Positions 14,641 to 57,412 of a DNA stretch of 64,000 nucleotides are shown one piece after another; position 1 is the stretch's first letter, and the number at the start of each line of letters is the position of its first letter. The stretch is taken from positions 1 to 64,000 of the IMG/VR virus record IMGVR_UViG_3300036772_000211; one strand, written 5' to 3'. The DNA is from a virus. A program made the position numbers and the translations under genes. The notes below the pieces were generated by a model, which did no database searches, was not told the origin of the DNA, and saw only the letters and a list, made by a program, of their open reading frames with translations.

Positions 14641-17600
14641 CTAGTTGTCGTACGCCTCGGCCCAGTCGTAGTCGACGGTGCAGGTTCCTGCGCCAGGCTG
14701 GCTGGGGTTCATGGCCGGTCCCAGCCGACCGCCTGTCACTTGCCAGGGAGTGCCGGTGGTGGTGTCGTTCAGGGTGGTATCGAGCACGCCGGCGACGTAG
14801 ACGCGGTAAACGCTCTTCGCGCCGGAATTGTCCTGCAGCAAGTCGATCTGATACCACGTGCCGACCGCGAAGCTCTGGAAGGTGAGTGACGCCTGCAGGA
14901 ACGTGCCGTCTGCGGCAGACACGCCGATCGTCCAGGCGCCGTTGAAGTCGTAGATCTCAGTACCGTGGCCGCTACCGTCGACCAGCTGGATGATCTGACA
15001 GGCACCGCCGGTGACGTTCCACGCCGACAGGCGGAACACCGTTGAGAACCTGAAGATCTTACTGATGGGTGCCAGACCCGGGGTGTCGATTGCGGCTTGC
15101 GCCCCGCCCAGCGGCGGCACAGACATCTCCGCATAGACGTTGTCTGCGCTGGGGGTGGTGCCGGTCAGGATCGTTTGCGTGCTGCCGGTGTCGATCGTGA
15201 AATGGTTGCCCCACAAGGGGAACGTGACAGCCTCGCCAGCGAAGCCGTCTCCGAACATCGGGTGAGCGACGGTGATGACGAGTGTGGTGCTCACCCCCTG
15301 GAGCTTCGCGGTGATGGTCGCAGCACCGATCGCCAGACAGCTGTAGTTGCCAAGCTGGTCGACGGTGACCTTGGTTGCATCCGAGGTCGACCAGACCGCG
15401 TAGGCATTCAGCCCGAGACGGATGGTGTCGTCGGAGAACAGACCCTGGATCTGCAGCTGTCCCGTTTTGCCGGGGTACGGCCAGGAAACCGGAGCGATGG
15501 TCATGGACACCACCTCGCCAACCAGATCCTGTGGCACGAACTTGCTCATGTCCGTCGGCAACACGCCTGCCGCAGCTGCCGTGTGGCAGATGTACTGCTT
15601 CCCGAAGAAGTCCACCGAATCGCCAGGCGCGTACGTGTTCGTCAGACTGTAGACACCTCGCCAGTTGACGGTGTACGGGCCGGGGCTGATGCCGCCGAGG
15701 GTGGTGGCGTTTGGGTTGAAGGCGACGATCTGTTCCTTCAGTGCCGTTGGATCGCCGCCGGTCGCGGTCACGTTGATGGCCAGATCGCCGAGCGTGTTGG
15801 TGTCGACCGCGGTGGCGTGGAAGATGTACCAGCCGCCGCCGACCTCGCTGACGGTGCCCGCGGGCGCGGCGAAGCTGCCGCCGGCCTTGCTGATCTGCAG
15901 GGTAGGGCTGGCACCCGTCAGCGCACTGATGTGGTCGCTCGAAGACACCATCGCGAACTCAATGCTGGCGGCGACGGATTGCTGCCACTGTCCCATAAGC
16001 TGGATTGCCTTTCGTGGTCGAACAGCGCTGCCGGTGACGGACAGTGTGGCGCTTGCCTTGCCCTGGCCTGTAGCGTTGCCCGAGAGGGCTGGATTGACCA
16101 CGCCGCCCGTAGCCTGGAGGTTGAAGCTGAGCCGCTCGTTGTAGGTGGTGACGTTGATGAACTGGATCTGGGTGTAGTTCGCAGGCGGGTTGGCCTGCAT
16201 GTCGATGGGCTTGATGCCACGCAGCGGCGCGAGGTGGCTGGTGACGTAAGCGTTCTGGTCACTGACGCCAGCTGACACCTCGGCGATCTGCGTCGTCTGG
16301 CCTGAGTTATCGACTTGCTGGCGCGGGTTGAGGATGGCGTACTGGGTGGCGCCGCCGATGACGTAGGGCGGGTTCGGACCCGGGAACGCCTGGCTACCGA
16401 AGCTCGCGCCCAGGAGCAGCTGGTTATTGCCCACCTTGATGCTCACGTTCGGGCACGACTCGCCGAGCCAGTAGTTCGAGATCGTTGACGGGCCACTGAA
16501 GCTGGAGAAGTCGACGTTCACGGCGCCGCCGACGATGCGTCCACCGTCCAGGCTGAATGTGCCATTGCCACCCCCGGCGATCAGGTTGCTGGTGCGACTG
16601 CTGTTCTCGGCGTAGATGTTGGCGCAGGCGATCGTGCCGCCCGAGTAGCAGCGGTAGAACGGGCCGTTGCCATTGCCCGTGGTGCCGAAGATCACGTGGA
16701 CCGTGGACCCGTTTTCGCTGCTGATGCCGTACACGCCGGTGGTGCCGGGCCAGCCGTCCTGCTCATTGAGTGAGACGCTCGAATTGATGACGTCGACCCT
16801 GATCCCGCCCAGGTTGTTGGCCAGGATGCCGCCGACCTGGGCTGCCTGCGAGTTGGCGAAGCCGTCGATGTGGATGACGCCCCCGCCGCCGTTCGGTCCG
16901 CTGGTGCCGAAGCAGTCGGCGATGCTGGCGCCCTGGACCTGCATGTTGCGGAAGATCACCTGTGACGGCAGGTTCAGCATGAACACCGGCCCCGTGCCGC
17001 TGCCGCTCCAGACCAGATTCGTCGCGTACTGTGAGTCGCCCTCGAAGAAGAGCGGGAAGTTCGCGGGAACCTGAATGGTCTGACTGACACCGATCTGGCC
17101 GGCGCCGATGTGGATGACGTCGAATGGTTGGGCGCTGTTGATTGCTGACTGGATCGAGCCGCCACTGGACTGGTTATCCCAGATGGTGCGTGTGACGACC
17201 GGCGGCTCAGCTGGGCGCGCGGGGAAGCCTGGATCGCTCCAGGCGATGCTGAAGGTGTCACTGATGGAGTGCGTCCGGGTGAAGGCGCTCGCGAAGTAAG
17301 GCGAACCGTCGGCGTACGTGTTGTTGATACCAACCTGCTCGCCGCTGGAGTTATCTCCGCTGTACGGGCACTCGGCGATAATTGCCACGGCGCCGCCCGT
17401 GCCATGTGCGCCGACAAGGTTATCGACCATGATGATCGGACCGGCGTTGCTGAGTTGGATGATCTCCGCGGCTTTGCCGCCGATGTTGCAGCCCTGGACG
17501 GTGAAGCTGGCGATGAAGTTACCGATCGCCTGCGCCTCGACGTGACGCCAGGCGCCCGGCGCACTGTAATTCCAGCGGCTGGACATGTTGGCGCCCAGGT

Positions 17601-18447
17601 TGCCGAAGAAGATGTCGTGCTCGCTGCATTGGAACGCCGAGCGGGCCACGACGAAGTCGCCCGAGAAGCCGGCCTGGTAGGTGGTGTTGCAGACGCCGTG
17701 ATTGGGGCCGATGAACTGGCAGTCCCAGATCCAGTTATCCAGACTGTTGAAGTTGTAGGTCATGATGCCGACCACGTCGGGGTTGGTGTTCCCCGTGATC
17801 GGGTTCTTGCTGCCGTAGGGGTTCTGCGCGTAGTTGAAATAGCAGCGCATGATCGACGTCTCGGACGCGCCGAAGCCGTAGACGCCGAGCATCAGGCCCG
17901 CGGTTTCGGACTGGGGACCGCTCTGATTAGAGACGCCGAGCAGGTTGACGAAGCCGAGATCTTCGTAGCGGTTGCCGGTCGGAAAGTACTGATTGTCAGG
18001 TGTCGGCGCGCCGTCGATCGAGTGGTACGCATCCATGACCCCAACGTTGGCGATGCCGGCGCCGTCGAAGGTCAGCCGCGCCAGCCGCAACTGGGTGACC
18101 CCATTGTGGACGAGCATGATCGCGTCATTGGTCGCGCCGCTACTGTTGGGCGGCGGGCCAACCCACTGGATGACCGTGTCGTCTCTGGAGTGGCCGACGA
18201 TCATCGGGCCGATCAGCCCTTGCCCCACGGGTCGATACGCCGCGTCACCATAGCCGGTGCCCATACCCAGCGTGGCGTTCTGGTAGTAGCGGCCCGGGTT
18301 CACGTAGTACGCGCTGGGGAAGCCGGGTCGGGAGATGTTGGAGCACATCGCCTGCAGCGCCGCGGTGTCGGTCGCGCCGCTGGTGTCACCGCTGGGGCGG
18401 ACCTGGCCCCAGCTGGGAAACAGGTGCCCGTGGAACTCTTCCAGCAT
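14641..18447 (-). CDS. Large multidomain tail spike (beta-helix, Ig-like, lectin-like), 1268 aa
   Basis: Residues ~20-380 and ~400-720 are two beta-helix regions (repeated short strands, Asn/Gly turns). A beta-sandwich covers ~770-910, a short Trp-rich carbohydrate-binding-like module (WRGVYSLTNTYAPGDSVDFF) ~927-960, a bacterial Ig-like (Big_2) domain ~978-1062, and a concanavalin/LamG-like domain ~1070-1268. It probably binds or cuts surface glycans of the host. It is on the strand opposite other virion genes and convergent with the secretion-like cassette (16-bp gap). The ATG lies inside a perfect inverted repeat. Confidence 0.75.
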   Translation of the reverse strand: MLEEFHGHLFPSWGQVRPSGDTSGATDTAALQAMCSNISRPGFPSAYYVNPGRYYQNATLGMGTGYGDAAYRPVGQGLIGPMIVGHSRDDTVIQWVGPPPNSSGATNDAIMLVHNGVTQLRLARLTFDGAGIANVGVMDAYHSIDGAPTPDNQYFPTGNRYEDLGFVNLLGVSNQSGPQSETAGLMLGVYGFGASETSIMRCYFNYAQNPYGSKNPITGNTNPDVVGIMTYNFNSLDNWIWDCQFIGPNHGVCNTTYQAGFSGDFVVARSAFQCSEHDIFFGNLGANMSSRWNYSAPGAWRHVEAQAIGNFIASFTVQGCNIGGKAAEIIQLSNAGPIIMVDNLVGAHGTGGAVAIIAECPYSGDNSSGEQVGINNTYADGSPYFASAFTRTHSISDTFSIAWSDPGFPARPAEPPVVTRTIWDNQSSGGSIQSAINSAQPFDVIHIGAGQIGVSQTIQVPANFPLFFEGDSQYATNLVWSGSGTGPVFMLNLPSQVIFRNMQVQGASIADCFGTSGPNGGGGVIHIDGFANSQAAQVGGILANNLGGIRVDVINSSVSLNEQDGWPGTTGVYGISSENGSTVHVIFGTTGNGNGPFYRCYSGGTIACANIYAENSSRTSNLIAGGGNGTFSLDGGRIVGGAVNVDFSSFSGPSTISNYWLGESCPNVSIKVGNNQLLLGASFGSQAFPGPNPPYVIGGATQYAILNPRQQVDNSGQTTQIAEVSAGVSDQNAYVTSHLAPLRGIKPIDMQANPPANYTQIQFINVTTYNERLSFNLQATGGVVNPALSGNATGQGKASATLSVTGSAVRPRKAIQLMGQWQQSVAASIEFAMVSSSDHISALTGASPTLQISKAGGSFAAPAGTVSEVGGGWYIFHATAVDTNTLGDLAINVTATGGDPTALKEQIVAFNPNATTLGGISPGPYTVNWRGVYSLTNTYAPGDSVDFFGKQYICHTAAAAGVLPTDMSKFVPQDLVGEVVSMTIAPVSWPYPGKTGQLQIQGLFSDDTIRLGLNAYAVWSTSDATKVTVDQLGNYSCLAIGAATITAKLQGVSTTLVITVAHPMFGDGFAGEAVTFPLWGNHFTIDTGSTQTILTGTTPSADNVYAEMSVPPLGGAQAAIDTPGLAPISKIFRFSTVFRLSAWNVTGGACQIIQLVDGSGHGTEIYDFNGAWTIGVSAADGTFLQASLTFQSFAVGTWYQIDLLQDNSGAKSVYRVYVAGVLDTTLNDTTTGTPWQVTGGRLGPAMNPSQPGAGTCTVDYDWAEAYDN

Positions 18448-33366: not shown

Positions 33367-33987
33367 ATGAATATGTTCGCCACCCCTAAGAGCGTTTCCT
33401 ACGTGGCTTCCGCGGAGCCAATCGACCCCAATGCCAAGTACCTCGTCGTTCTCATGGAGATCAAGGACGAGGGTGTCAGCCAGTTCGCTGACCAGGCGGA
33501 CGCTGACCCGCCGCACAACCTGGGCTGGACGTTCCGCCTCCACAACATGGACAAGACGCCCGTCCTGAATATCGATGGTGACGTGTACGAGCACCACGAC
33601 TTCACCTCGAACCGCACCGGCAAAGGTGGTGCGCGCACAGCCAAGGCGCGCGAGTGGATCGAAGCCCTGCTCGGTCGCGCCGTCGATGACGGCGAGATCA
33701 ACGACTCGCTGCCTGGCCAGCTGATCCACAAGGCCGCGGTGATCCTCTTCGAGACGAAGGAAGTCACGGGTCGCAACGGTGAGACGTATGAGCGGCTGCG
33801 CATCATGCGCATGTCGCCCATGAAAGACGGCGGGCAACCGATGCCGCAGGCCGCGGCCATCTCTCCCCGTCAAGGAGCCGCGCCACTGCCGGTCGCGGCG
33901 CCATCACTCGACGCCGTCCTGGCGGGAAGACCTCAAGGAGCACCGGCAGCGCGCACGCCAGACCCCGACAACGAGCTTCCCTTCTAG
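33367..33987 (+). CDS. SSB-like single-strand DNA-binding protein, 206 aa
   Basis: A beta-rich front domain (residues ~20-140) is followed by a flexible Pro/Ala tail ending DPDNELPF, an acidic tip with terminal Pro-Phe as in bacterial SSBs, which use it to recruit replication proteins. The core is not recognisably the standard OB fold. It lies 25 bp before the primase-helicase gene, which supports a replication role. Confidence 0.6.
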   Translation: MNMFATPKSVSYVASAEPIDPNAKYLVVLMEIKDEGVSQFADQADADPPHNLGWTFRLHNMDKTPVLNIDGDVYEHHDFTSNRTGKGGARTAKAREWIEALLGRAVDDGEINDSLPGQLIHKAAVILFETKEVTGRNGETYERLRIMRMSPMKDGGQPMPQAAAISPRQGAAPLPVAAPSLDAVLAGRPQGAPAARTPDPDNELPF

Positions 33988-34012: not shown

Positions 34013-35932
34013 GTGACGTTCACAGCCCCCGCCGAACTCGCCACGCGACCCCAGTGGGTCGCGTGGCGGATCGAGGATCGCATCGACGCGAAGGGGGAAG
34101 TCAAACCTACCAAGGTGCCGTACAACGCGCGCACAGGCAAGCGGGCAGCTAGCACTGACCCGTCAACCTGGGCGGCGTTCGAGGTGGCTGTGGCGTTCGC
34201 AGAGCACGAGCGCATGGGTGGCATCGGCTTCGTGGTCACCAACGATGACCCGTACGTCGGCGTCGACCTTGATCACTGCCGCGATGATGACACGGGTGCG
34301 ATCGAAGAGTGGGCTGCCGTGATTGCGATGCAACTCGACAGCTACACAGAGATCAGCCCGTCGGGCACTGGACTGCGGATCTTCGTCCGCGGCGAGCTAC
34401 CACCGTTCGGCAAGCGCAAAGGCCACGTCGAGATGTACCAGCACGCGCGCTTCCTGACGGTGACCGGCAACCATCTCGAAGGCAGCCCCGAAGCCATCGA
34501 AGATCGGTGCAGTGAACTGCTCGAACTGCACCACAGCGTCTTCGGAGCGCCGCCGGAGGCGCGCCAGAACGGTCATGTGGCGGCGCGCCTCCCTCTCGCG
34601 CTCGCTGACGCCGACGTGCTCAAGAAGGCTCGCGGCGCGACCAATGGCGAGAAGTTCTGGGCACTGTGGAACGGTGACTGGTCAGGCAGCTACGACTCGC
34701 AGTCCGAAGCTGACCTGGCACTGGTGAGTTACCTGGCGTTCTATACGGGTCCAGACGAAGCGCGCCTGGATCAGCTGTTCCGCGCGAGCGGCCTGGTGCG
34801 TGACAAGTGGGACCGACCTGACTACCGCGGAAGCACGATCAGCAAAGCGCTGGACGGTCGCACGGAGTTCTATGGTAACGGCAGCCTCGCGCTAGCGCCC
34901 AGGCTCAGCGTCAACGGTCTGGTGCATGCCAGCGCTGGTGAGGTTGACCCAGAGACGGGCGAGGTGGTCAAGCCGCGCCTGATTATCTCGCTAGCTGAGA
35001 TGGTGAAGGGCGCACCCGAGTCAGACCGCCAGCTTGTCGAAGGCATGCTGTGGGCCGGCCTGCTGCACTGGCTGTACTCAGGACCAGGCTCAGGCAAGAC
35101 CATGCTCGCGCTCGCGATGGGCATGCACATCGCGGCTGGCAAGCCGTTCCTGGGCCGTGCCGTGGAACAGGGCACGGTGCTGCTGGTCGAAGAGGATTCG
35201 CCGCGCACCGTTATGCGCGACTACGTTGAGCTTCTGGCGGCAATCTATGACATCGACCTCGACGGGCTGCCGTTCTATATGAACGACATTCGCGGGCTGA
35301 AGATGTCAGACGAAGACGGCTGTAACGCGGTCAAAGAGCTTGTGGCCGCATGCCCGCAGCAACCGCTGCTGCTGATCCTCGACGCCTGCGAGCGCCTGGT
35401 GCCGAGCGCTGACTTCAACAGCCGAGAGCTAGCACCGCTCAAAGATTTCCGCGTGTGGGCCGAAGAGCAAGCCGTCGCAATGCTGATGATCGACCACACG
35501 CGAAAGCCAGGCAATGGCGACAAGATAGACGACATCGACCTGCTCTATGGTGGCCGCTCAAAGTCCGCGCTCGCGGACATCATGATGTGCATAAAGGGCA
35601 GCATCAAAGCTGAGGCTAAGCTGACCTTCCCCAAGCGTCGCGGCGAGGATATCCCAGCTATCGATCTGAACTTCGATGCTGCTGGCGGATTCATCTTCAA
35701 GCAGGAAGCTGCGCCGCTCAGCGACAACGAACGGCTGATAATCAAAGCCATCAACAATGCACCTGGGACGCGGCTAACCAAAGCCGACATCATGAAGGAT
35801 TCTGGCCTACCAGAAGGCATCGCGAACCGCGCGCTGCAAGCCCTTGTGAAGGCTGGTCGTATCGACCGTCAGGGAGCCTCAGTGGCGACCACGTACGGCC
35901 TGCGGACTGGCACAGGAGGGTTCTTCAGTTGA
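34013..35932 (+). CDS. Primase-polymerase/helicase replication protein, 639 aa
   Basis: GTG start. Residues ~1-180 resemble NrS-1-type primase-polymerases: GIGFVVTNDDPYVGVDLDHC (D-x-D), ISPSGTGLRIFV, and HARFLTVTGNHLEG. A helical bridge (~200-290) follows. Residues ~330-560 are a RepA-like AAA ATPase: Walker A GPGSGKTM near 357, Walker B LLLILDACE near 453, and a late DHTRKPG and GGRSKSALAD. The C terminus (~575-630) is a winged helix. It should open DNA and make primers at the adjacent iteron array. Confidence 0.85.
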   Translation: MTFTAPAELATRPQWVAWRIEDRIDAKGEVKPTKVPYNARTGKRAASTDPSTWAAFEVAVAFAEHERMGGIGFVVTNDDPYVGVDLDHCRDDDTGAIEEWAAVIAMQLDSYTEISPSGTGLRIFVRGELPPFGKRKGHVEMYQHARFLTVTGNHLEGSPEAIEDRCSELLELHHSVFGAPPEARQNGHVAARLPLALADADVLKKARGATNGEKFWALWNGDWSGSYDSQSEADLALVSYLAFYTGPDEARLDQLFRASGLVRDKWDRPDYRGSTISKALDGRTEFYGNGSLALAPRLSVNGLVHASAGEVDPETGEVVKPRLIISLAEMVKGAPESDRQLVEGMLWAGLLHWLYSGPGSGKTMLALAMGMHIAAGKPFLGRAVEQGTVLLVEEDSPRTVMRDYVELLAAIYDIDLDGLPFYMNDIRGLKMSDEDGCNAVKELVAACPQQPLLLILDACERLVPSADFNSRELAPLKDFRVWAEEQAVAMLMIDHTRKPGNGDKIDDIDLLYGGRSKSALADIMMCIKGSIKAEAKLTFPKRRGEDIPAIDLNFDAAGGFIFKQEAAPLSDNERLIIKAINNAPGTRLTKADIMKDSGLPEGIANRALQALVKAGRIDRQGASVATTYGLRTGTGGFFS

Positions 35933-35940
35933 GCGGGAAA

Positions 35941-36104
35941 AGCGTGCTACGGGGCGTGACACGCTTTAGCACGCTCAATCTCAAAAGCGTGCCAAAAGCG
36001 TGCTACGACTACAAGATCAATACAGGATCGAGCGTGCTACGTAGCGTGCCAAAAGCGTGCCAAGCGTGCTACGCCCGAGTTCAAAAGCGTGCTACGGAGC
36101 GTGT
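35941..36104 (+). repeat. ori: Iteron array, probable replication origin
   Basis: Eight exact AGCGTGC units start at 35941, 35986, 35997, 36031, 36043, 36054, 36063 and 36086; weaker ones are GGCGTGA (35953) and AGCGTGT (36098), and one inverted copy covers 35975-35964. Most continue as TACG or CAAA. Start-to-start distances are 12, 33, 11, 34, 12, 11, 9, 23 and 12 bp, i.e. close to whole helical turns. The array lies just after the initiator-like gene. It would load the replication protein on one DNA face. Confidence 0.75.
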
Positions 36105-36142
36105 CGCCTCGCGCGCGTACGCGAGCGCGTGCATGACGCGCG

Positions 36143-36212
36143 CCCCCTTCGGGGGAGAGATGGTTTGTGTGGTCGGGGCGGCTCCCGCTAACGCTCCCGC
36201 CGCCCTCCGACC
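36143..36212 (+). repeat. Two hairpins downstream of the iterons
   Basis: CCCC (36144-36147)-TTCG-GGGG (36152-36155), an UUCG-type hairpin, and GGTCGGGGCGGC (36171-36182) against GCCGCCCTCCGACC (36199-36212), a longer imperfect stem. They fill the gap before the gene at 36230. They may be origin structure, primer sites or terminators. Confidence 0.45.
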
Positions 36213-36229
36213 AGTGTGTGGAGGATCGA

Positions 36230-36502
36230 ATGGCTAAATTCGTTCATGTGTCGGCGCTTGACGCTGACACTCGGCAATGGCGGCACGTGTTCGTCAACGC
36301 CGAGCAGATTCAGTACATCCGAGACATGCCGATGGGCGCACCATCGATGACTCAGATCGTGATGGCGAACGGCATTGTGCTCAGCGTGGATGGCAGCGCT
36401 GACTGCCTCGCTGAGTACCTGGCGGGGGATTCTGTTCACCCGCTCGAAGACTGGATCTACACCAACCATCGGCGGATCGACATGGATGGGTCCGCAACCT
36501 GA
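36230..36502 (+). CDS. Hypothetical early protein, 90 aa
   Basis: ATG 36230 with GAGG 5-6 bp upstream; longer readings would cross the hairpins. Small alpha/beta protein (FVNAEQIQYIRD; VMANGIVLSVDGSAD). Its end meets the next ATG. Probably in the replication operon. Confidence 0.55.
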   Translation: MAKFVHVSALDADTRQWRHVFVNAEQIQYIRDMPMGAPSMTQIVMANGIVLSVDGSADCLAEYLAGDSVHPLEDWIYTNHRRIDMDGSAT

Positions 36503-37236
36503 TGGAAAAGCACCCGCCTGCCTACCTGAGCAGTAGCCGTCTCGGCTGCTACGACTGGTGCCCTGCCGAGTTTCGCAAGCGGTACGTGGAAAACCACGAT
36601 GAGCCACCTACCGCGGAGCGCATCTTCGGCGTGTCGGTGCATGCGGGATTCGAGGCCCATTTCAAGGGTGAGGATGGCGACGTTGCGTTCCTGCGAGCGT
36701 GGCGCGAAGGCGTCAAAGAGCTACAGGCAGCCGACGTGCTCTTCGGCCCTGGTCTGGAGCTACGCGGCCTGGAAATGCTGGATCAGATCCGCGACCTGGG
36801 CATCGCTGGTGAGCCTGAGCGCTTCGTATCGGTAGTGTATCCGGGCTTCAAGATCCCGTTCATCGGCTACGCAGATCTGTGGGCCGATGGGCACATTTAC
36901 GACTTCAAAACCACGGGCTACCCCTGGACGCAGGCCAAGGCGGACGCCCAGATATTTCAGCCGGCAATCTACTCGCAGGCATACCTCGATGAGCACGGCA
37001 CGCTGCCGCGGTTCACGTTCATCGTGCTGCCGAGGATTGCAGGACAGATTCAGATGTTGAATGGCACGCGCGACATCGAGCAGATCGAGGCAGTGTTCGC
37101 TCGCGCGCATCAGATCCACGAGTGCATCGAGAATCATCAGTTCGATTGCCAGTGCGGAAAGCACGGGCTGGATGACGACATGGTGATCAATCTGCAGATC
37201 GCCAAGACGTTCGAGCGGAGGAAGTTCATCGTATGA
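36502..37236 (+). CDS. PD-(D/E)XK nuclease, Cas4/RecB-like, 244 aa
   Basis: YLSSSRLGCYDWCPAEFRKRYV at the start is the entry helix of this family. The active site is GYADLWADGHIYDFKTTG (near residues 113-130: Asp, then D-F-K), followed by QPAIYSQAY (QxxxY). Likely a 5'-3' or recombination exonuclease. Cys residues near the start and end (CYDWC; DCQCGKHG) may hold a metal cluster as in Cas4/AddB, though the exact set is uncertain. Confidence 0.75.
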   Translation: MEKHPPAYLSSSRLGCYDWCPAEFRKRYVENHDEPPTAERIFGVSVHAGFEAHFKGEDGDVAFLRAWREGVKELQAADVLFGPGLELRGLEMLDQIRDLGIAGEPERFVSVVYPGFKIPFIGYADLWADGHIYDFKTTGYPWTQAKADAQIFQPAIYSQAYLDEHGTLPRFTFIVLPRIAGQIQMLNGTRDIEQIEAVFARAHQIHECIENHQFDCQCGKHGLDDDMVINLQIAKTFERRKFIV

Positions 37237-51187: not shown

Positions 51188-54100
51188 GTGCCGCCGGTCT
51201 TCATCTCCAACGACGATTACCAGCAGTTCCAGGGCGATACCTGGGCGCAGCAGGCGCAGGGACAGGTCGCCGATCAGTGGGCGCAGCAGGCTAACGGCAA
51301 CGCGCCGAGCATGGTCGCAGACGCTGCAGACCGAGCCCAGCAGTCGGCGCAGGCCCAGCAGGCTGTCCAACAGGGACAGGACCAACAGGCCGGCCTCGAC
51401 AGTGCCGCGCAGCAAGGTGCGCAGGCGGGTATCCAGCAGGCTGCGACGGAGGCGCAGAACAACCAGAACGCTCAGGACTGGACGAACAAGGCGTACTCGG
51501 ATACAGCGACCAAAGTCACGGGTGTTGCGCCGCTGCCTTCGGCCGCGCCCGCCCCGGCTGCGGCTCCGTCCGACACCTCGGCGCCAGCACCAGCCGCTGT
51601 CGCACCTGACGTCACGGCGTCCGCCGCGCCGAGCGCGCCCGCCGGCCTCCCAAGCGGCGCTGCGGGCAACTTCGTGGCTTATGCGTGGCAGGCGGCACAG
51701 AAGGCTGGCATTGACCCGAACATCTTCGTGCGTCAGATCCAGCAGGAGTCGGGCTTCAATCCGACCGCCAAGAGCGGGGCTGGTGCGCAAGGTATCGCCC
51801 AGATCATGCCGGCTACGGCGAAGGGTTGGGGTGTCGATCCCAGCGACCCGCTTGCAAGCCTGGACGCCGCTGCGACGCACATGGCTGGCTACCTTCAGTC
51901 TTACGGCGGCGACTGGGCGAAAGCGCTCGCAGCGTACAACGCTGGTCCTGGCAACGTCGATAAGTTTGGCGGGGTGCCGCCCTTTGCGGAGACGCAGAAG
52001 TACGTCTCAAGCATCCTGGGCAGCGCTGGGCCGAGCGCGCAGGATTTGCTGAACAAGGCCGGCACGGCAGCACAGGGCGCAGGCACCGTGGCGAGCAGCG
52101 CCATCCAGGCGCCCGTGCAGAGCGCCCAGGACATCCTCGCGAAGGCGAACCCGTTCATCGGCAACAACTACGTGTGGGGCGGCAAGAGTCCGCAGCAGGG
52201 CTTCGACTGCTCAGGTCTGGCCGGCTACTTGACCACAGGCCAGCCTGAGTCGACCACCTCGCTGTACGGCAAGAGCACTGGTGTCGGCGCCGACCAGGCG
52301 CAGCCGGGCGACCTCGTGTTCTGGAACATGAACTCCAGCGACCCGCACGAGCAGCACGTCGCCGTCTACCTGGGCAATGGCCAGATCGTGCAGTCAGGCG
52401 GCGACCAGACGAAGGTCAACATCGGCAGCGTCAACCAGTCGATCGGCTCGGCGCCCGAGTTCCGACGCGTGAGCACGACTGCCGGCCAGGGACAGCCGGC
52501 ACAGGCTAACGCGCCAGCTGGTGCTCCACCACCCAACGCGCCGCCAGGCCAGCCGGGCCAGCCGGCCCAGCCAGCTGCGACCAACCTGAGCGACTACATC
52601 ACCCAGTACCAGGCAGCCAACAACGGAGCGATGCCCGACGATCAGGCTGTTGGCAACTTCGTGATGGGCCAGATGCAGCCTGCTGCCGGTGGCGCGCCAC
52701 CACCACCCCCGCCGCCAGGTGGTCCGAACAACAACGGCAACAACCAGAATCAGCAACAGCCGAGTCCGCTGGATACGTTTCTCACCGGACTCGGCGGCGC
52801 CGGTAGTGCGCTCGGTGGCGTGCTCAGCAACGCTGGGCAGACCGCGCAGGGTGCGCTCGGCGATCTCGGGCAAGGTGCGCAGGCAGCTGGCACTGGTGTG
52901 GTCAATGCCGCGCAGTCACCGCAGGTTCAGGGCGCGCTCGGCACTGCGGGTGACCTGGCCTCCGGCGGCATTACTCGGGCGTTCAATAACCAGCTGCAGG
53001 ATCTGGGGCAGAACGTGATCGCCCCGCCCATCAACGCCGTGGCCGACGCACTGAATCCCGCGGTCACGCCCACGCCCCCGCTCGCTCAGGGCGCGCAGGC
53101 GTTGTCGCAGCAGGATGTGCCGTTCTTGAGTGGCGCCGCGGGTGTTGCCGCGCCGTTCCTCGCTCAGCCAGGTGCGCTCGATGCGCTCATGAACCCGAAC
53201 GTGCCAGACAGCCAGAGGATGCTGGCTGTCGGCGGCGTGGCAAGCCCGCTCGCGTTGGAGCAGGGTGGCGGCGAAGCGCTGGCGAACGCGGCCGGCCGCA
53301 CCATGCAGGGCGCAAGCCTCGGCCAGCGATTGTTGGGCATTGGCCAGGACGCAGCCGACGCGACGGGCGGGGCGACAATGCCGATTGGACGCACACCGAT
53401 CGGTCAGGGTGGTCTGGGGACGCCGAACTACAACTTTGCTGAAGGGTCGCCTGAGCAGCAGATCACTCAGGTGCTGCGCAATGCAGCGTCGACCGACGAG
53501 ACAGGCCGCGCCAGGCTTACATCAGAGCAGATGTCGCAGCTACCTGGCATGCCTACTCCTGACGCGCCGTTGACTGCGCAGGGCAACACGCAGTGGAACT
53601 CTGGGCAGCCGCCGGCACTGGACGATTGGCGTTCGGCCATCGACGCGGGCATCCAGCACTCGCAGTGGTATTCGCAGTTCGCGAAGGGCATCGCCAATAC
53701 GGTTGGACGCGCGAACATTCCCGAGTTTTCATCGCTGTTCGGCATCACGTCGCCTCAGGCCAAGGTTGACGTCAACCTGTCTCAGACGCTGGCTCTCATG
53801 CGGATGGCGCGCGAGTTCGAGGCGAACGGCACCCCGTTTACCGAGCAGACCATTCAGGATTGGGTGCATGCCACGGATTCGAACGGCGTGCAGACCAACG
53901 GCATCCTGAAGAACGACGGCACGCCAGGCGGCTGGCAATCGTGGACGGGTCAGAAGGCAAAGCAGGTCGCCCAGCTTTATAGCGAGGGGAGCGTCGAGGT
54001 GCCGTCCAACGCGAAGACCCCGAGCTACGCGGGCAACATCATCTCGGCGCTAAACAATCAGTTCGATCCGAACTCCACGATTGACACGTGGATGTTTCAG

Positions 54101-57100
54101 CTTGGCGGCTATCAGAACAACAGCAAGGCTGCGAGTGAAGACCTGGCCTACCGTGCGATGCGTACGGTCAACGGGCATCTAGCCGGCGAGCTAGGGATCA
54201 CTCCGAATCAGGCGCAGGCAGCAGCGTGGTTCGGGATGAAGGCAGTCAAGGACTTTGCCGATACGGCGGGTGCTCCGCAAGCCCTGAAGTCAGCGATCGC
54301 TGACTACGGCAAGCCAGGCAGTACGACGACGCTCGGGGATCTCGTCGCGATGGGCAAGAACGAGGGTGGCCAGTTTGGCGACTACGGGAACCTGTTTGAC
54401 AGTCCGTCGGGCACCTGGCAGGACACGATCAACACCCCAAAGATCGCGCACCAACTCGGGATGCTTCCCGACAACATCACCGATACGACACCTCCGGGCG
54501 CGGCCAGTGCTGGTCAGCTAACGTATCCCGGCCAGACGACCAAGGCGATCCCGTCGTCGTTTCCAGTCACGCCAGAGGACACGGCAGCCAGGCGAACGCT
54601 CGCGGAGGGTCAAGCGCCCGTGGTCACCTTGCCAGGCATGTCGGACAACATCGCTCAGCAGCTTGGCTACGATCCGCAGACGAGCCAGTTCTCAGCGCTC
54701 GGCAACATGCCCCACATTGTGGACGCAAGCGGTGACACGACCAAGGTGCTCATTCCAGGCGGTAACGTCGACGCGGCGCTGTACGCGGGCGCGACCGTCA
54801 ATAAGGCCGCTGGCACCGACGCGATGGACGTTCACATGTTCACGCCGCAGGGCCAGGACACCATTGGTTACCACGTGGTCAACAGCGACGGCAGCAACCT
54901 CGACGGGCCACAGGCTGAGGCAGTCAGGAACGCACTCGACGCGCATGACTTGCAATACTCTGCCTCGCCAGATGGTACAATCGTACGTGTACACGCTCCT
55001 ACGAGCGGGGCCGATGAGGCTTTCCAGAGCCAGATGGCGCAGGCATTGGACAAGATGCCTAACCTTCAGGTTGAGGAACTCAAGGGTGTAGCTCAGAGCG
55101 TCGGGGCAGGTGACTATGACCAGATCATTCAAAGATATGCTTCGCGGTACGGCGCCCCCGAACAGCCCGGCGTACAAGCTGGGAACGTCGATCTCGGTGG
55201 GACCGAAGCTGGGGCCGGAGCAGCAGGGGGCGCTCAAACAGCTGGATACGGCGGAGCACTCGGAGGGGGCGGGCCAGGGGGCCAAGCCCCAGGGGCTAAC
55301 GCCGCCACCTCGCCTCAACAAGTAATCGGTGGCGCCCAGGCGGGCGCTGTCAATCCGCGGTTCGCGACCTCGCTTGGCGGCGCCGCCGCGGGGGGCCTGG
55401 CAGGCTACAACTCGGATCCGAACGCTGACGAGCAGACGAAGATCGAGCGCGCGGCAGCTGGCGCGCTCGCGGGCGCAGGACTTGGCTACGCGGCGGGTAG
55501 CATTGCCTCGGGGGGCGTCGACCCGTGGGCCGTCATCCAGGCTGAGCGCGTCGGTTCGATGGCGGGTGGCGTCTCGTCGCTTGCGCACATCGCGCTCAAC
55601 ACGCCGATCCAGGCGATGTGGAAGGTCGCGGGCGACGCGATCCTGTCGGTCAAGAGTCCTGAGACGATCCCGATGGAGTTCTTCGGCGCGTATAAAGGAT
55701 TGGCCGAGTGGCTGCCGACCGTCATCCCGCAGCTGACCGCGCCAGGGAAGCTGGCGACGCAGATCGGTGGCGTCGAGGGGCAGGCTGTCGAGACAGGGCT
55801 GATGGGGCTGGTCAAGACCCACGGCGTGCTGCAGGACTTCGCCAGTTCGGTCGGCACGAACATGGAGCTATGGCGCCTGGCAGGCGAACAGGCCGCTCAG
55901 AACAGCGTGCGCTTTTCGCCTCAATGGTGGAACGACGTCAACAAGATCGCCGCAGCGCCGCCAGGCCAGATGACTCAGCAAGCGCAACAGGTCGGCCAGC
56001 AATTCGCGCTCCGCGGTCCGCTGGGGCAGACAGGTTCGGCGATTCAGGACTTCCTGCAAGCCTCGCGGCTGGGGCGCTTGCTCAACCCGTTCTTCGGCAT
56101 CGGCGCGCACGTTGTCTCGGGTGGCATCGAGCGCTCGCCGCTTGGCGCTCTGGGCACCGCAGCTGACGTCGCGCGCGCTCCATTCGGTTTCGGACCGTAT
56201 GCAGCTACCGTTCCCGCTGGCCAGAGTCTGCTGCCAGGGGCGTCCCGCGTCAACTGGGGTGGTACGGACGCCGTAACTGCGCTCGGACCTCGTCTCAGGA
56301 ACAATATCCTGGGCCTGGGGGCCGCGGTCTGGGCGTTCAACCAGGCTGCGCAGGGCAATATCACAGGAAATGGGCCGTCAGACCCCGCAATCCGCGCGGA
56401 ATTGACGAAAACGGGCTGGGCGCCGAACTCGGTGCGCATCGGAGGCCGCTATTTCAGCCTCAATACGCTCGGCGTGGCTGGCTGGGGGCTCGCGCAGGGC
56501 GCGAATGTGTACGAAGCGACGCATACGGGCGACCAGGGCGGCTACATGAAGCCAGATGCGACCCTGCAGGACCAGTTAGGCGACGTTGCGGGCCGCATGT
56601 CGGCCTATGTTGAGAACGAAACCTTCTTGAAAGGCATCGGCGACCTCGCGGCTGCCATGCAGAACAAGGCGACAGGCTCTGGCGACGTCGCGTACGAGCT
56701 TGGCAGCATGGGATCGTCGCTCATCCCGCAAGGATCGCTGATTGGCAACGCTGCGAGCGCAATGGACCCCTTCCAGCGCAAGATTCAGACGGGTGACATC
56801 GGCCAGCAGATCGAAAATCGCATTCCAGGGCTTCGAGAGACGCTAAATCCGAAGCTGGGCGACACCGGCCAGCCGTTATCCAACCCGCAGGCGGGTTTGG
56901 GGGTGGTTTTGCCGCGAAGCAGCGTCATTCAGGACGATCCGGTGGCCAATATGCTGCTGAACGTCGGAATGAGCCCGCCGGTGGCCCCGAAGACCATTCG
57001 CGCGGGCAATGAGCAGGTTCAGATCACCCCGGACGAGCAATACCAGTACCAGACCCTCCGCGGGGCCATGTTGCAGCAGATGATGGGTCCGTTGACCTCG

Positions 57101-57412
57101 AATGCGAAATTCCTGCAGGCTCAACCCCAGGCGCGCAAGCAAGTGCTCACGAAGATGCTGTCGCAGGCCGATTCCGTGGCTCAGCGGCAGCTTCTGGGGC
57201 AGATTGCGCAGGGTGGCGCTCTGGCGGGCCGTCTAACGCCTCAGGCGAAGAATGTGGCACCGCAGAGCTTCGGCCCGCCCATGTCGATCCAGCAGTACCA
57301 GCCGCAGGGCGCTTCAGCGCCGCAGCAGAACCTGCCCGTCGAATCGGACATGGCTACTCTGTCTCCTGAGCTTCAGATGCAGCTGCAGGATCAGATGGGT
57401 GGCGGCGGGTAA
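51188..57412 (+). CDS. Giant virion protein with lytic transglycosylase and NlpC/P60 domains, 2074 aa
   Basis: GTG start. Gln/Ala-rich N terminus (~1-150). SLT-type transglycosylase at ~160-275: QESGFNPTAKSGAGAQGIAQIMP (catalytic Glu) and ALAAYNAGPGNV. NlpC/P60 peptidase at ~315-420: GFDCSGLAGYL (Cys near 341) and EQHVAVYLGNG (His near 390). Pro-rich link ~500. Later, SSLFGITSPQAKVDVNL (~840-860) resembles a domain of unknown function in other phage proteins. Hydrophobic helices occur near 1710. It should bore through the wall during infection, cutting both glycan and peptide. Confidence 0.8.
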   Translation: MPPVFISNDDYQQFQGDTWAQQAQGQVADQWAQQANGNAPSMVADAADRAQQSAQAQQAVQQGQDQQAGLDSAAQQGAQAGIQQAATEAQNNQNAQDWTNKAYSDTATKVTGVAPLPSAAPAPAAAPSDTSAPAPAAVAPDVTASAAPSAPAGLPSGAAGNFVAYAWQAAQKAGIDPNIFVRQIQQESGFNPTAKSGAGAQGIAQIMPATAKGWGVDPSDPLASLDAAATHMAGYLQSYGGDWAKALAAYNAGPGNVDKFGGVPPFAETQKYVSSILGSAGPSAQDLLNKAGTAAQGAGTVASSAIQAPVQSAQDILAKANPFIGNNYVWGGKSPQQGFDCSGLAGYLTTGQPESTTSLYGKSTGVGADQAQPGDLVFWNMNSSDPHEQHVAVYLGNGQIVQSGGDQTKVNIGSVNQSIGSAPEFRRVSTTAGQGQPAQANAPAGAPPPNAPPGQPGQPAQPAATNLSDYITQYQAANNGAMPDDQAVGNFVMGQMQPAAGGAPPPPPPPGGPNNNGNNQNQQQPSPLDTFLTGLGGAGSALGGVLSNAGQTAQGALGDLGQGAQAAGTGVVNAAQSPQVQGALGTAGDLASGGITRAFNNQLQDLGQNVIAPPINAVADALNPAVTPTPPLAQGAQALSQQDVPFLSGAAGVAAPFLAQPGALDALMNPNVPDSQRMLAVGGVASPLALEQGGGEALANAAGRTMQGASLGQRLLGIGQDAADATGGATMPIGRTPIGQGGLGTPNYNFAEGSPEQQITQVLRNAASTDETGRARLTSEQMSQLPGMPTPDAPLTAQGNTQWNSGQPPALDDWRSAIDAGIQHSQWYSQFAKGIANTVGRANIPEFSSLFGITSPQAKVDVNLSQTLALMRMAREFEANGTPFTEQTIQDWVHATDSNGVQTNGILKNDGTPGGWQSWTGQKAKQVAQLYSEGSVEVPSNAKTPSYAGNIISALNNQFDPNSTIDTWMFQLGGYQNNSKAASEDLAYRAMRTVNGHLAGELGITPNQAQAAAWFGMKAVKDFADTAGAPQALKSAIADYGKPGSTTTLGDLVAMGKNEGGQFGDYGNLFDSPSGTWQDTINTPKIAHQLGMLPDNITDTTPPGAASAGQLTYPGQTTKAIPSSFPVTPEDTAARRTLAEGQAPVVTLPGMSDNIAQQLGYDPQTSQFSALGNMPHIVDASGDTTKVLIPGGNVDAALYAGATVNKAAGTDAMDVHMFTPQGQDTIGYHVVNSDGSNLDGPQAEAVRNALDAHDLQYSASPDGTIVRVHAPTSGADEAFQSQMAQALDKMPNLQVEELKGVAQSVGAGDYDQIIQRYASRYGAPEQPGVQAGNVDLGGTEAGAGAAGGAQTAGYGGALGGGGPGGQAPGANAATSPQQVIGGAQAGAVNPRFATSLGGAAAGGLAGYNSDPNADEQTKIERAAAGALAGAGLGYAAGSIASGGVDPWAVIQAERVGSMAGGVSSLAHIALNTPIQAMWKVAGDAILSVKSPETIPMEFFGAYKGLAEWLPTVIPQLTAPGKLATQIGGVEGQAVETGLMGLVKTHGVLQDFASSVGTNMELWRLAGEQAAQNSVRFSPQWWNDVNKIAAAPPGQMTQQAQQVGQQFALRGPLGQTGSAIQDFLQASRLGRLLNPFFGIGAHVVSGGIERSPLGALGTAADVARAPFGFGPYAATVPAGQSLLPGASRVNWGGTDAVTALGPRLRNNILGLGAAVWAFNQAAQGNITGNGPSDPAIRAELTKTGWAPNSVRIGGRYFSLNTLGVAGWGLAQGANVYEATHTGDQGGYMKPDATLQDQLGDVAGRMSAYVENETFLKGIGDLAAAMQNKATGSGDVAYELGSMGSSLIPQGSLIGNAASAMDPFQRKIQTGDIGQQIENRIPGLRETLNPKLGDTGQPLSNPQAGLGVVLPRSSVIQDDPVANMLLNVGMSPPVAPKTIRAGNEQVQITPDEQYQYQTLRGAMLQQMMGPLTSNAKFLQAQPQARKQVLTKMLSQADSVAQRQLLGQIAQGGALAGRLTPQAKNVAPQSFGPPMSIQQYQPQGASAPQQNLPVESDMATLSPELQMQLQDQMGGGG

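Follow-up and report, generated by a model that had tools for sequence, protein, structure and literature searches.

The stretch of viral DNA analyzed here (64,000 nucleotides, part of a 64,960-base IMG/VR virus record, and hereafter ‘the window’) carries a dense cluster of the heptamer AGCGTGC directly past the stop codon of a gene for a 639-residue primase-helicase. A preliminary description of the window had proposed that this cluster is an iteron origin of replication. The locus raises two questions: whether the repeats are such an origin, and which protein reads them.

A dense array of short direct repeats follows the primase-helicase gene

The gene, the array and the elements immediately past it are as follows.

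34013–35932 (+): 639-aa primase-helicase gene, GTG start (Pfam and PHROG matches)
35937–36104 (+): iteron array, unit AAAAGCGTGCTACG, core AGCGTGC; nine exact cores plus weaker copies
35969–35975 (−): inverted AGCGTGC unit, an exact match of the 7-mer
36004–36030: AT-rich gap between two clusters of units (27 bp, GC 0.41)
36143–36155: short hairpin, C5-TTC-G5, just past the array (sequence and fold)
36170–36213: strong hairpin, lacking a T-run, between the array and the next gene (z −3.5, 0 of 200 shuffles)

The stop codon of the gene ends at 35932 and the first unit, AAAAGCGTGC, occupies 35937–35947, placing the beginning of the array about 5–9 bp past the stop and confirming that it directly follows the replication gene, as originally described. 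Nine exact copies of AGCGTGC lie within 152 bp (35941–36092): eight direct copies, starting at 35941, 35986, 35997, 36031, 36043, 36054, 36063 and 36086 (+), and one inverted copy. Copies with one mismatch are found at 36098 (+, AGCGTGT) and 35959 (−), and a weaker direct unit, GGCGTGA, at 35953. The earlier tally of eight exact and two weaker units holds for the direct strand (the weaker ones being those at 35953 and 36098), and the inverted unit, which had also been recognized, brings the exact total to nine.

Across the whole window AGCGTGC occurs 27 times, against a chance mean of 26, so that what is unusual is the clustering and not the total. The array is the densest cluster of any 7-mer in the window (nine copies; the unrelated 7-mer that ranks next, in a GCATGCA run, has six), and it exceeds all 1259 control windows of equal size (maximum of six for any k-mer). 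When the 64 kb were shuffled 60 times at the dinucleotide level, no 7-mer formed a cluster of more than four copies. In its dense, mostly direct short repeats, non-coding and far above chance, the array resembles iteron origins in general. Separate clusters of GCATGCA and ATGCATG, with six copies per 160 bp each, are present in the left arm of the window at about 24714 and 27440.

An overlapping 102-aa frame with a TTG start (35929–36237) stays open through the array, as would be expected if the units were a coding repeat or chance low-complexity sequence. The positions of the direct units modulo 3 (1, 1, 0, 1, 1, 0, 0 and 2) place them in all three frames, which indicates a repeat at the level of DNA rather than of protein; one unit is inverted, the 102-aa frame has no family match, and none of the 60 shuffles produced a comparable cluster. 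We consider a coding or chance origin of the repeats exceedingly improbable.

A search of IMG/VR with the pattern AGCGTRCTACG..AGCGTRC returned 52 stretches and identified no other viral contig sharing the AGCGTGC array. All of the stretches were rejected: one (L022) is an unrelated tandem repeat, another (L039) is rich in GCGTGC and includes two full cores, and the remainder contain two or three units.

Spacing of the units and features flanking the array

The gaps between successive exact direct copies are 45, 11, 34, 12, 11, 9 and 23 bp, and the previously listed spacings (12, 33, 11, 34, 12, 11, 9, 23 and 12 bp) are correct when the units at 35953 and 36098 are counted. The accompanying claim of helical phasing fared less well: a period of 10.5 bp is not supported (Rayleigh R = 0.31, P = 0.58), and a scan from 10 to 12 bp peaks close to 11.3 bp (R = 0.92; P about 0.003 when units are placed at random without overlap). 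The units recur at nearly regular intervals that drift relative to B-form DNA, and ‘helically phased’ is therefore true only in a loose sense.

The AT-rich gap is uncommon for its surroundings, with equally low GC content in 49 of the 6000 27-mers of the region from 33 to 39 kb. The two hairpins past the array are present as first reported. Neither contains a T-run and neither was scored as a terminator; a reading of them as terminators was rejected, the two terminator-like sites that were found being located elsewhere and at chance number. The array region has no match to an Rfam family. It also contains no DnaA box, which, like the lack of a TTTA-type hairpin (below) and of a GC-skew reversal, we count against our preferred reading. 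The region at 33.3–37.3 kb yielded no promoter-like site of the sigma-70 type, and cumulative GC skew, which had been suggested as a check, climbs through 36 kb with no reversal; the former is weak evidence, as is the latter in a phage.

Domain organization of the 639-aa protein and its gene neighborhood

The domains of the protein and the genes on either side are listed below.

33367–33987 (+): upstream gene, possible SSB (C-terminus DNELPF)
34022–34882 (+): primase half, aa 4–290 (phrog_1829 and phrog_13901, DNA primase; tblastn matches to phage and haloarchaeal plasmid proteins)
34997–35512 (+): RepA-like AAA_25 helicase domain, aa 329–500 (PF13481, 1.5e-20, above cut-off)
35705–35875 (+): putative C-terminal winged helix, aa about 565–621 (concordant sub-threshold Pfam matches)
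36502–37236 (+): PD-(D/E)XK nuclease, 3′ of the array (PF12705, 2.9e-10; phrog_69, exonuclease)

Pfam matches of the full protein comprise NrS1-1_pol-like_HBD (8e-21) and AAA_25 (1.5e-20), with no match to D5, DUF927 or DUF5906, and its PHROG matches are to DNA primases (up to 8.9e-86). The primase half, judged by its relatives, is of the archaeo-eukaryotic type (AEP); among the matches listed it is nearer to haloarchaeal plasmid proteins (up to 48.5% identity) than to phage records (about 43%). The C-terminal region gave three matches at the same place, all under the curated cut-offs (MarR_2, 0.0045; HTH_24, 0.0064; TrmB, 0.0079), and a match to the helicase family phrog_12156 (2e-4). These concordant matches suggest that the protein probably ends in a DNA-binding winged helix; an AF2 model of it (pLDDT 41.5) was too poor to confirm the fold. 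Close relatives of the protein were not found. The one viral match (L002, 32%) has a different C-terminal half, a search of genome contigs returned no relatives, and a search with the C-terminal half as the query returned none either.

The nuclease past the array belongs to the same replication and recombination module as the primase-helicase. The product of the gene upstream has no Pfam or PHROG match; its DNELPF terminus resembles an SSB tail, and we take it to be a possible SSB. Among nine proteins scanned at 33.4–45 kb, no RepC-like initiator was recognized by Pfam or PHROGs. Elsewhere in the window, a 2074-aa protein (51188–57412) with transglycosylase SLT and NlpC/P60 domains is probably a cell-wall enzyme of the tail tip or tape measure, and a 1268-aa protein (14641–18447, −) has a weak match to a bacterial Ig-like domain (Big_2).

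Unrelated repeat arrays occupy the same position in other phages

A relative of the window phage, identified by its terminase (L058, a 63 kb contig, 54% identity), encodes an AAA_25 protein (3.1e-15) that aligns only marginally with the window protein, and an array of a different unit, CCGGGTT, begins at the stop codon of its gene. A search for relatives of that helicase returned only L058 itself. Of 20 AAA_25 helicase genes whose 3′ ends we inspected by hand, ten have arrays. The units at these ten loci are as follows.

Window: AGCGTGC
L058: CCGGGTT
L123: GGTACA
L124: GGTTCA
L117: GTGACGAT
L122: GGGGACATG
L129: GCGTGACAA
L116, L118 and L119 (CRP-406 type): GGCTGGAAA or GGTTGGAAA (L118 and L119 weak, not above in-locus controls)

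Phages with unrelated units directly past an AAA_25 helicase gene include CRP-406 (GGCTGGAAA), MT836902 (GTGACGAT), CGphi29, 1N2-2, XX1924 and RHph_X2_25. The other ten of the 20 loci had no array (L112, L113, L114, L115, L120, L121, L125, L126, L127 and L128), and none was seen at L055 or L002, both of which have a different C-half. One of the ten, Rhodococcus phage Jflix2 (L127), has GTAACGGCGTTACTAACGGCGTTAG about 430 bp past the helicase stop, inside the next gene, which is annotated as a RepA-like replication initiator; this may be a split form of the arrangement, in which the iterons lie within the gene for the initiator.

We then surveyed three extended families, related to Alteromonas XX1924 (A), from Clostridia (C) and related to Rhizobium X2_25 (R), by comparing the 350 bp after each helicase stop with every other window of the same size from the same locus. 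Four family A and two family C loci were left out, their stop not being found or being followed by less than 150 bp. The region past the stop exceeded all in-locus controls at 23 of 30 loci in R, 45 of 79 in A and 13 of 79 in C, proportions that are not prevalences because the families were seeded from loci already carrying an array. Arrays in family R reach 17 copies.

A less selected sample was drawn by taking the best AAA_25 match from each of 119 Bacillota genomes, from which 30 loci were taken; the counts leave out L322, which lacked a usable frame, and L348, whose frame was of 40 aa. Arrays above all controls were present past three of the ten analyzable high-scoring genes (L326, L327 and L328), with none past the other seven, and past one of the 18 lower-scoring genes, which from their length and tail look like chromosomal RadA or DnaB. 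The array at L327 consists of ten copies of AGGGAAA and that at L328 of six copies of GGCCCAA together with a hairpin. An array past an AAA_25 helicase gene is, then, a common but not universal arrangement.

This recurrence bears on whether the repeats might instead be phage repressor operators or a parS-like site for segregation. Short units clustered in both orientations are seen in such sites too. The same position just past AAA_25 helicase genes nevertheless recurs in unrelated phages, and the proteins scanned beside the window array include no repressor or ParB match; we regard this explanation as very unlikely.

Array units co-vary with the C-terminal domain of the helicase in two families

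In families R and A the array unit shifts together with the C-terminal domain of the helicase. Partial Mantel correlations between array k-mer distance and C-terminal distance, with the rest of the protein removed, were 0.671 in A (n = 59) and 0.715 in R (n = 21), values reached in 0 of 2000 permutations in either family, a procedure that does not fully remove shared ancestry. The reverse partial correlations (array against the rest of the protein, C-terminus removed) were −0.189 and −0.269, respectively. Before these sets were dereplicated, ten family A loci whose C-terminal types lack arrays had been removed, as had R loci with n < 4. Where the nearest neighbor by C-terminus and by the rest of the protein disagreed, the array agreed with the C-terminus in 11 of the 13 family R cases (one against, one tie). 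In A it did so in only 19 of 37 (13 against, five ties), which we count against the preferred reading.

Within family A, five classes of unit, assigned by eye at 52 loci (43 after dereplication), map one-to-one on helix residues 626–628 across the 43 dereplicated loci.

KQY or RQY: GGTAAC
KVY: GGGAAC/CGGAAC
DKK: GGACC
END: GGGGGC
RNM: GGGTCA

Residues 605–645 (40 of 668 columns) hold 14 of the 20 most informative columns, and arrays are missing from the ten family A loci whose C-termini belong to two other types.

The closest comparison is provided by L146 and L149, whose proteins are identical at 651 of 672 residues (96.9%), with just three substitutions in the C-terminal domain (Q627V, S633A and P634T). 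From L146 to L149 nearly every unit changes from GGTAAC to GGGAAC/CGGAAC, the two arrays aligning site by site with a repeated T-to-G substitution. Identity at the DNA level is 68% in the array segment, 92–97% in the gene and 93% just beyond the array. Of the 55 pairs in family A whose proteins are at least 90% identical, ten diverge this strongly in the array segment, including one pair in which neither locus has an array; none of the 13 family R pairs at 80% does.

A model of the L146 C-terminus has a winged-helix-like fold, with good confidence over the last hundred residues, and places Q627 in the predicted recognition helix (helix 83–89 of the modelled piece). Foldseek returned nothing for it at E <= 0.001, the top rows being mostly winged-helix regulators. 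Families A and R have related C-terminal regions (hhalign 92.7%, E 4.3e-07). For the window protein, hhalign aligns an A-N-R...LV..G helix with the F-x-R recognition helix of family R (21 columns; E 0.0044, with a probability of only 7.9%). In family R, N occupies the corresponding position in L129 and L293, whose unit is AAGCGTGACAA (the window unit being AAAAGCGTGCTACG), and in L313, which has a CGTACG-rich array. The fit between helix and unit in the window and in these N-bearing members is suggestive and could be coincidence.

These observations weigh on the alternative that the array is an origin bound by some other protein, either one of the host or a distinct initiator of the phage. A division of that kind is described for RSF1010, in which RepC acts on the iterons and RepA serves only as helicase (PMC4234260), and some AAA_25 helicases lack an adjacent array. 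A third-party binder would not explain why the array tracks the helicase C-terminus in two families with the rest of the protein held constant, nor the natural three-residue switch between L146 and L149, and no recognized initiator gene lies directly beside the window array. We consider this alternative unlikely and favor recognition by the helicase itself.

DnaA boxes and hairpins accompany the arrays of some families

The DnaA box TTATCCACA is present in 33 of 79 family A array regions (24 with two or more) but in only 16 of 1255 control windows and none of the ten family A loci that lack an array. DnaA boxes are absent from the arrays of the window, L058, M and R and, as TTATCCACA, from those of C, making them a feature of family A only. 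At L146, L149 and L138, perfect TTATCCACA boxes flank the array, two just past the helicase stop and one about 198 bp on.

A hairpin with a pyrimidine-rich 5′ arm and a TTTA-type loop was found at 47 of 79 family A loci against 1 of 1233 controls, with all 47 among the 69 array-type loci, and at 18 of 30 family R loci against 5 of 555 controls. The stems, perfectly paired, take 22 distinct sequences in A and nine in R, indicating that pairing is kept while sequence changes. Hairpins with TTTA or TATA loops lie in or beside the arrays (for example at +244 past the stop in L290 and +117 in L146), and are perhaps priming sites. Their pyrimidine-arm form is absent from family C (0 of 79), as are TTTA-type hairpins from M; near the arrays of the window and L058 there are none with a TTTA or TATA loop, and the window has the C5-TTC-G5 hairpin instead.

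The array might also be bound by the C-terminal domain of the helicase and yet serve in regulation or silencing, for instance through control of the downstream genes or handcuffing of replication, with replication starting elsewhere. All of the evidence above concerns recognition rather than initiation, and the array sits between two operon-like genes, so that a bound protein could block read-through transcription. Its location is nevertheless the 3′ end of a gene, in a region with no promoter-like site of the sigma-70 type (weak evidence, as noted), and the excess of DnaA boxes and hairpins over controls in family A suits origins better. The precedents from SaPI and SCCmec likewise point to origins (PMC7581432). 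We therefore treat a purely regulatory array as a minor possibility, and an origin as the better account.

Comparison with known replication systems

The closest parallels are those two systems. The C-terminal domain of SaPI Rep reads ori repeats directly downstream of the rep gene, and SCCmec Cch2 binds direct repeats just past its own gene (both described in PMC7581432); a layout with the array 3′ of the helicase gene is thus already known for SaPI and SCC helicases. The window array is likewise directly 3′ of a helicase gene. Those helicases belong to the D5/Primase_Cterm or DUF927 type, whereas the window motor is AAA_25/RepA-like, with a primase fused at its N-terminus. The likeness may extend to reading by the C-terminus, for which other AAA_25 families show strong co-variation; the window protein itself has a putative winged helix.

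The alpha protein of phage P4 binds its origin (ori/crr), and its helicase belongs to a different superfamily from that of the window. It combines an initiating helicase and a primase in one protein (PMC7145576), and the window protein would join the same two activities.

As described in PMC4234260 and PMC4538821, oriV of the IncQ plasmid RSF1010 combines iterons, the RepA helicase and ssi hairpins that are used by a primase. The window shares with it a RepA-type helicase (PF13481, above), an AEP primase, iterons and nearby hairpins. It differs in that RSF1010 iterons are read by a separate RepC, whereas the window reader is apparently part of the same polypeptide as the helicase, whose gene has the array at its 3′ end.

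ORF904 of pRN1 combines an AEP, a helicase and a winged helix and has a required element 3′ of its gene (PMC4234260). In the account given there the helicase is of SF3 type and the element is a 100-nt stem-loop with no iterons, unlike the AAA_25 motor of the window and its short hairpins beside an iteron array. PrimPol-PV1/PrimQH replicases unite an AEP, a RepA- or DnaB-type helicase and a winged helix in one protein, and origin recognition by a winged helix has been suggested for PolpTN2 (PMC5862659); the word ‘iteron’ does not occur in that article, and the portions of it considered here do not describe 3′ arrays or a correspondence between unit and helix. In the open-access literature considered, which takes in few subscription papers and so may miss an earlier description, we found no account of arrays 3′ of RepA-like phage helicases or of a unit-to-helix correspondence.

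The label ‘lambda-type’, used in the preliminary description, does not apply. According to PMC6022878 the lambda origin lies inside gene O; the window array lies after a gene, not within it, and that gene encodes a helicase.

A proposed self-recognizing helicase-initiator

We conclude that the array is likely the replication origin of this phage, or the initiator-binding part of it, and that it is read by the 639-aa protein encoded immediately upstream. This conclusion derives from relatives, in which unrelated units occupy the same spot, unit and C-terminus co-vary and, in one family, DnaA boxes and hairpins accompany the array. The original proposal of an iteron origin read by the primase-helicase thus stands as the best-supported reading, shorn of its helical phasing, its expected skew and its comparison with lambda.

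We propose the following course of events in the window phage. The C-terminal winged helix of the primase-helicase would bind the AGCGTGC units, gathering several RepA-like helicase domains at the array, and would load them in the AT-rich gap or close to it. Priming by the fused primase would follow, perhaps at the neighboring hairpins, such that a single polypeptide would act as initiator, helicase and primase. The layout is best read as a self-recognizing helicase-initiator with an iteron origin just 3′ of its gene, like SaPI Rep and ori and built on a RepA-type helicase.

More broadly, and tentatively, since we hold it somewhat less probable than its converse, RepA-like phage helicases may constitute a broad class of self-recognizing initiators, in which a C-terminal winged helix reads a 3′ iteron array and a few helix residues form an evolvable specificity code, array and helix switching together; the window would fit that code. 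If so, sequence would suffice to find phage origins, by looking immediately 3′ of the AAA_25 helicase gene, and these phages would offer a natural series of initiator and origin pairs from which the recognition code could be read and tested.
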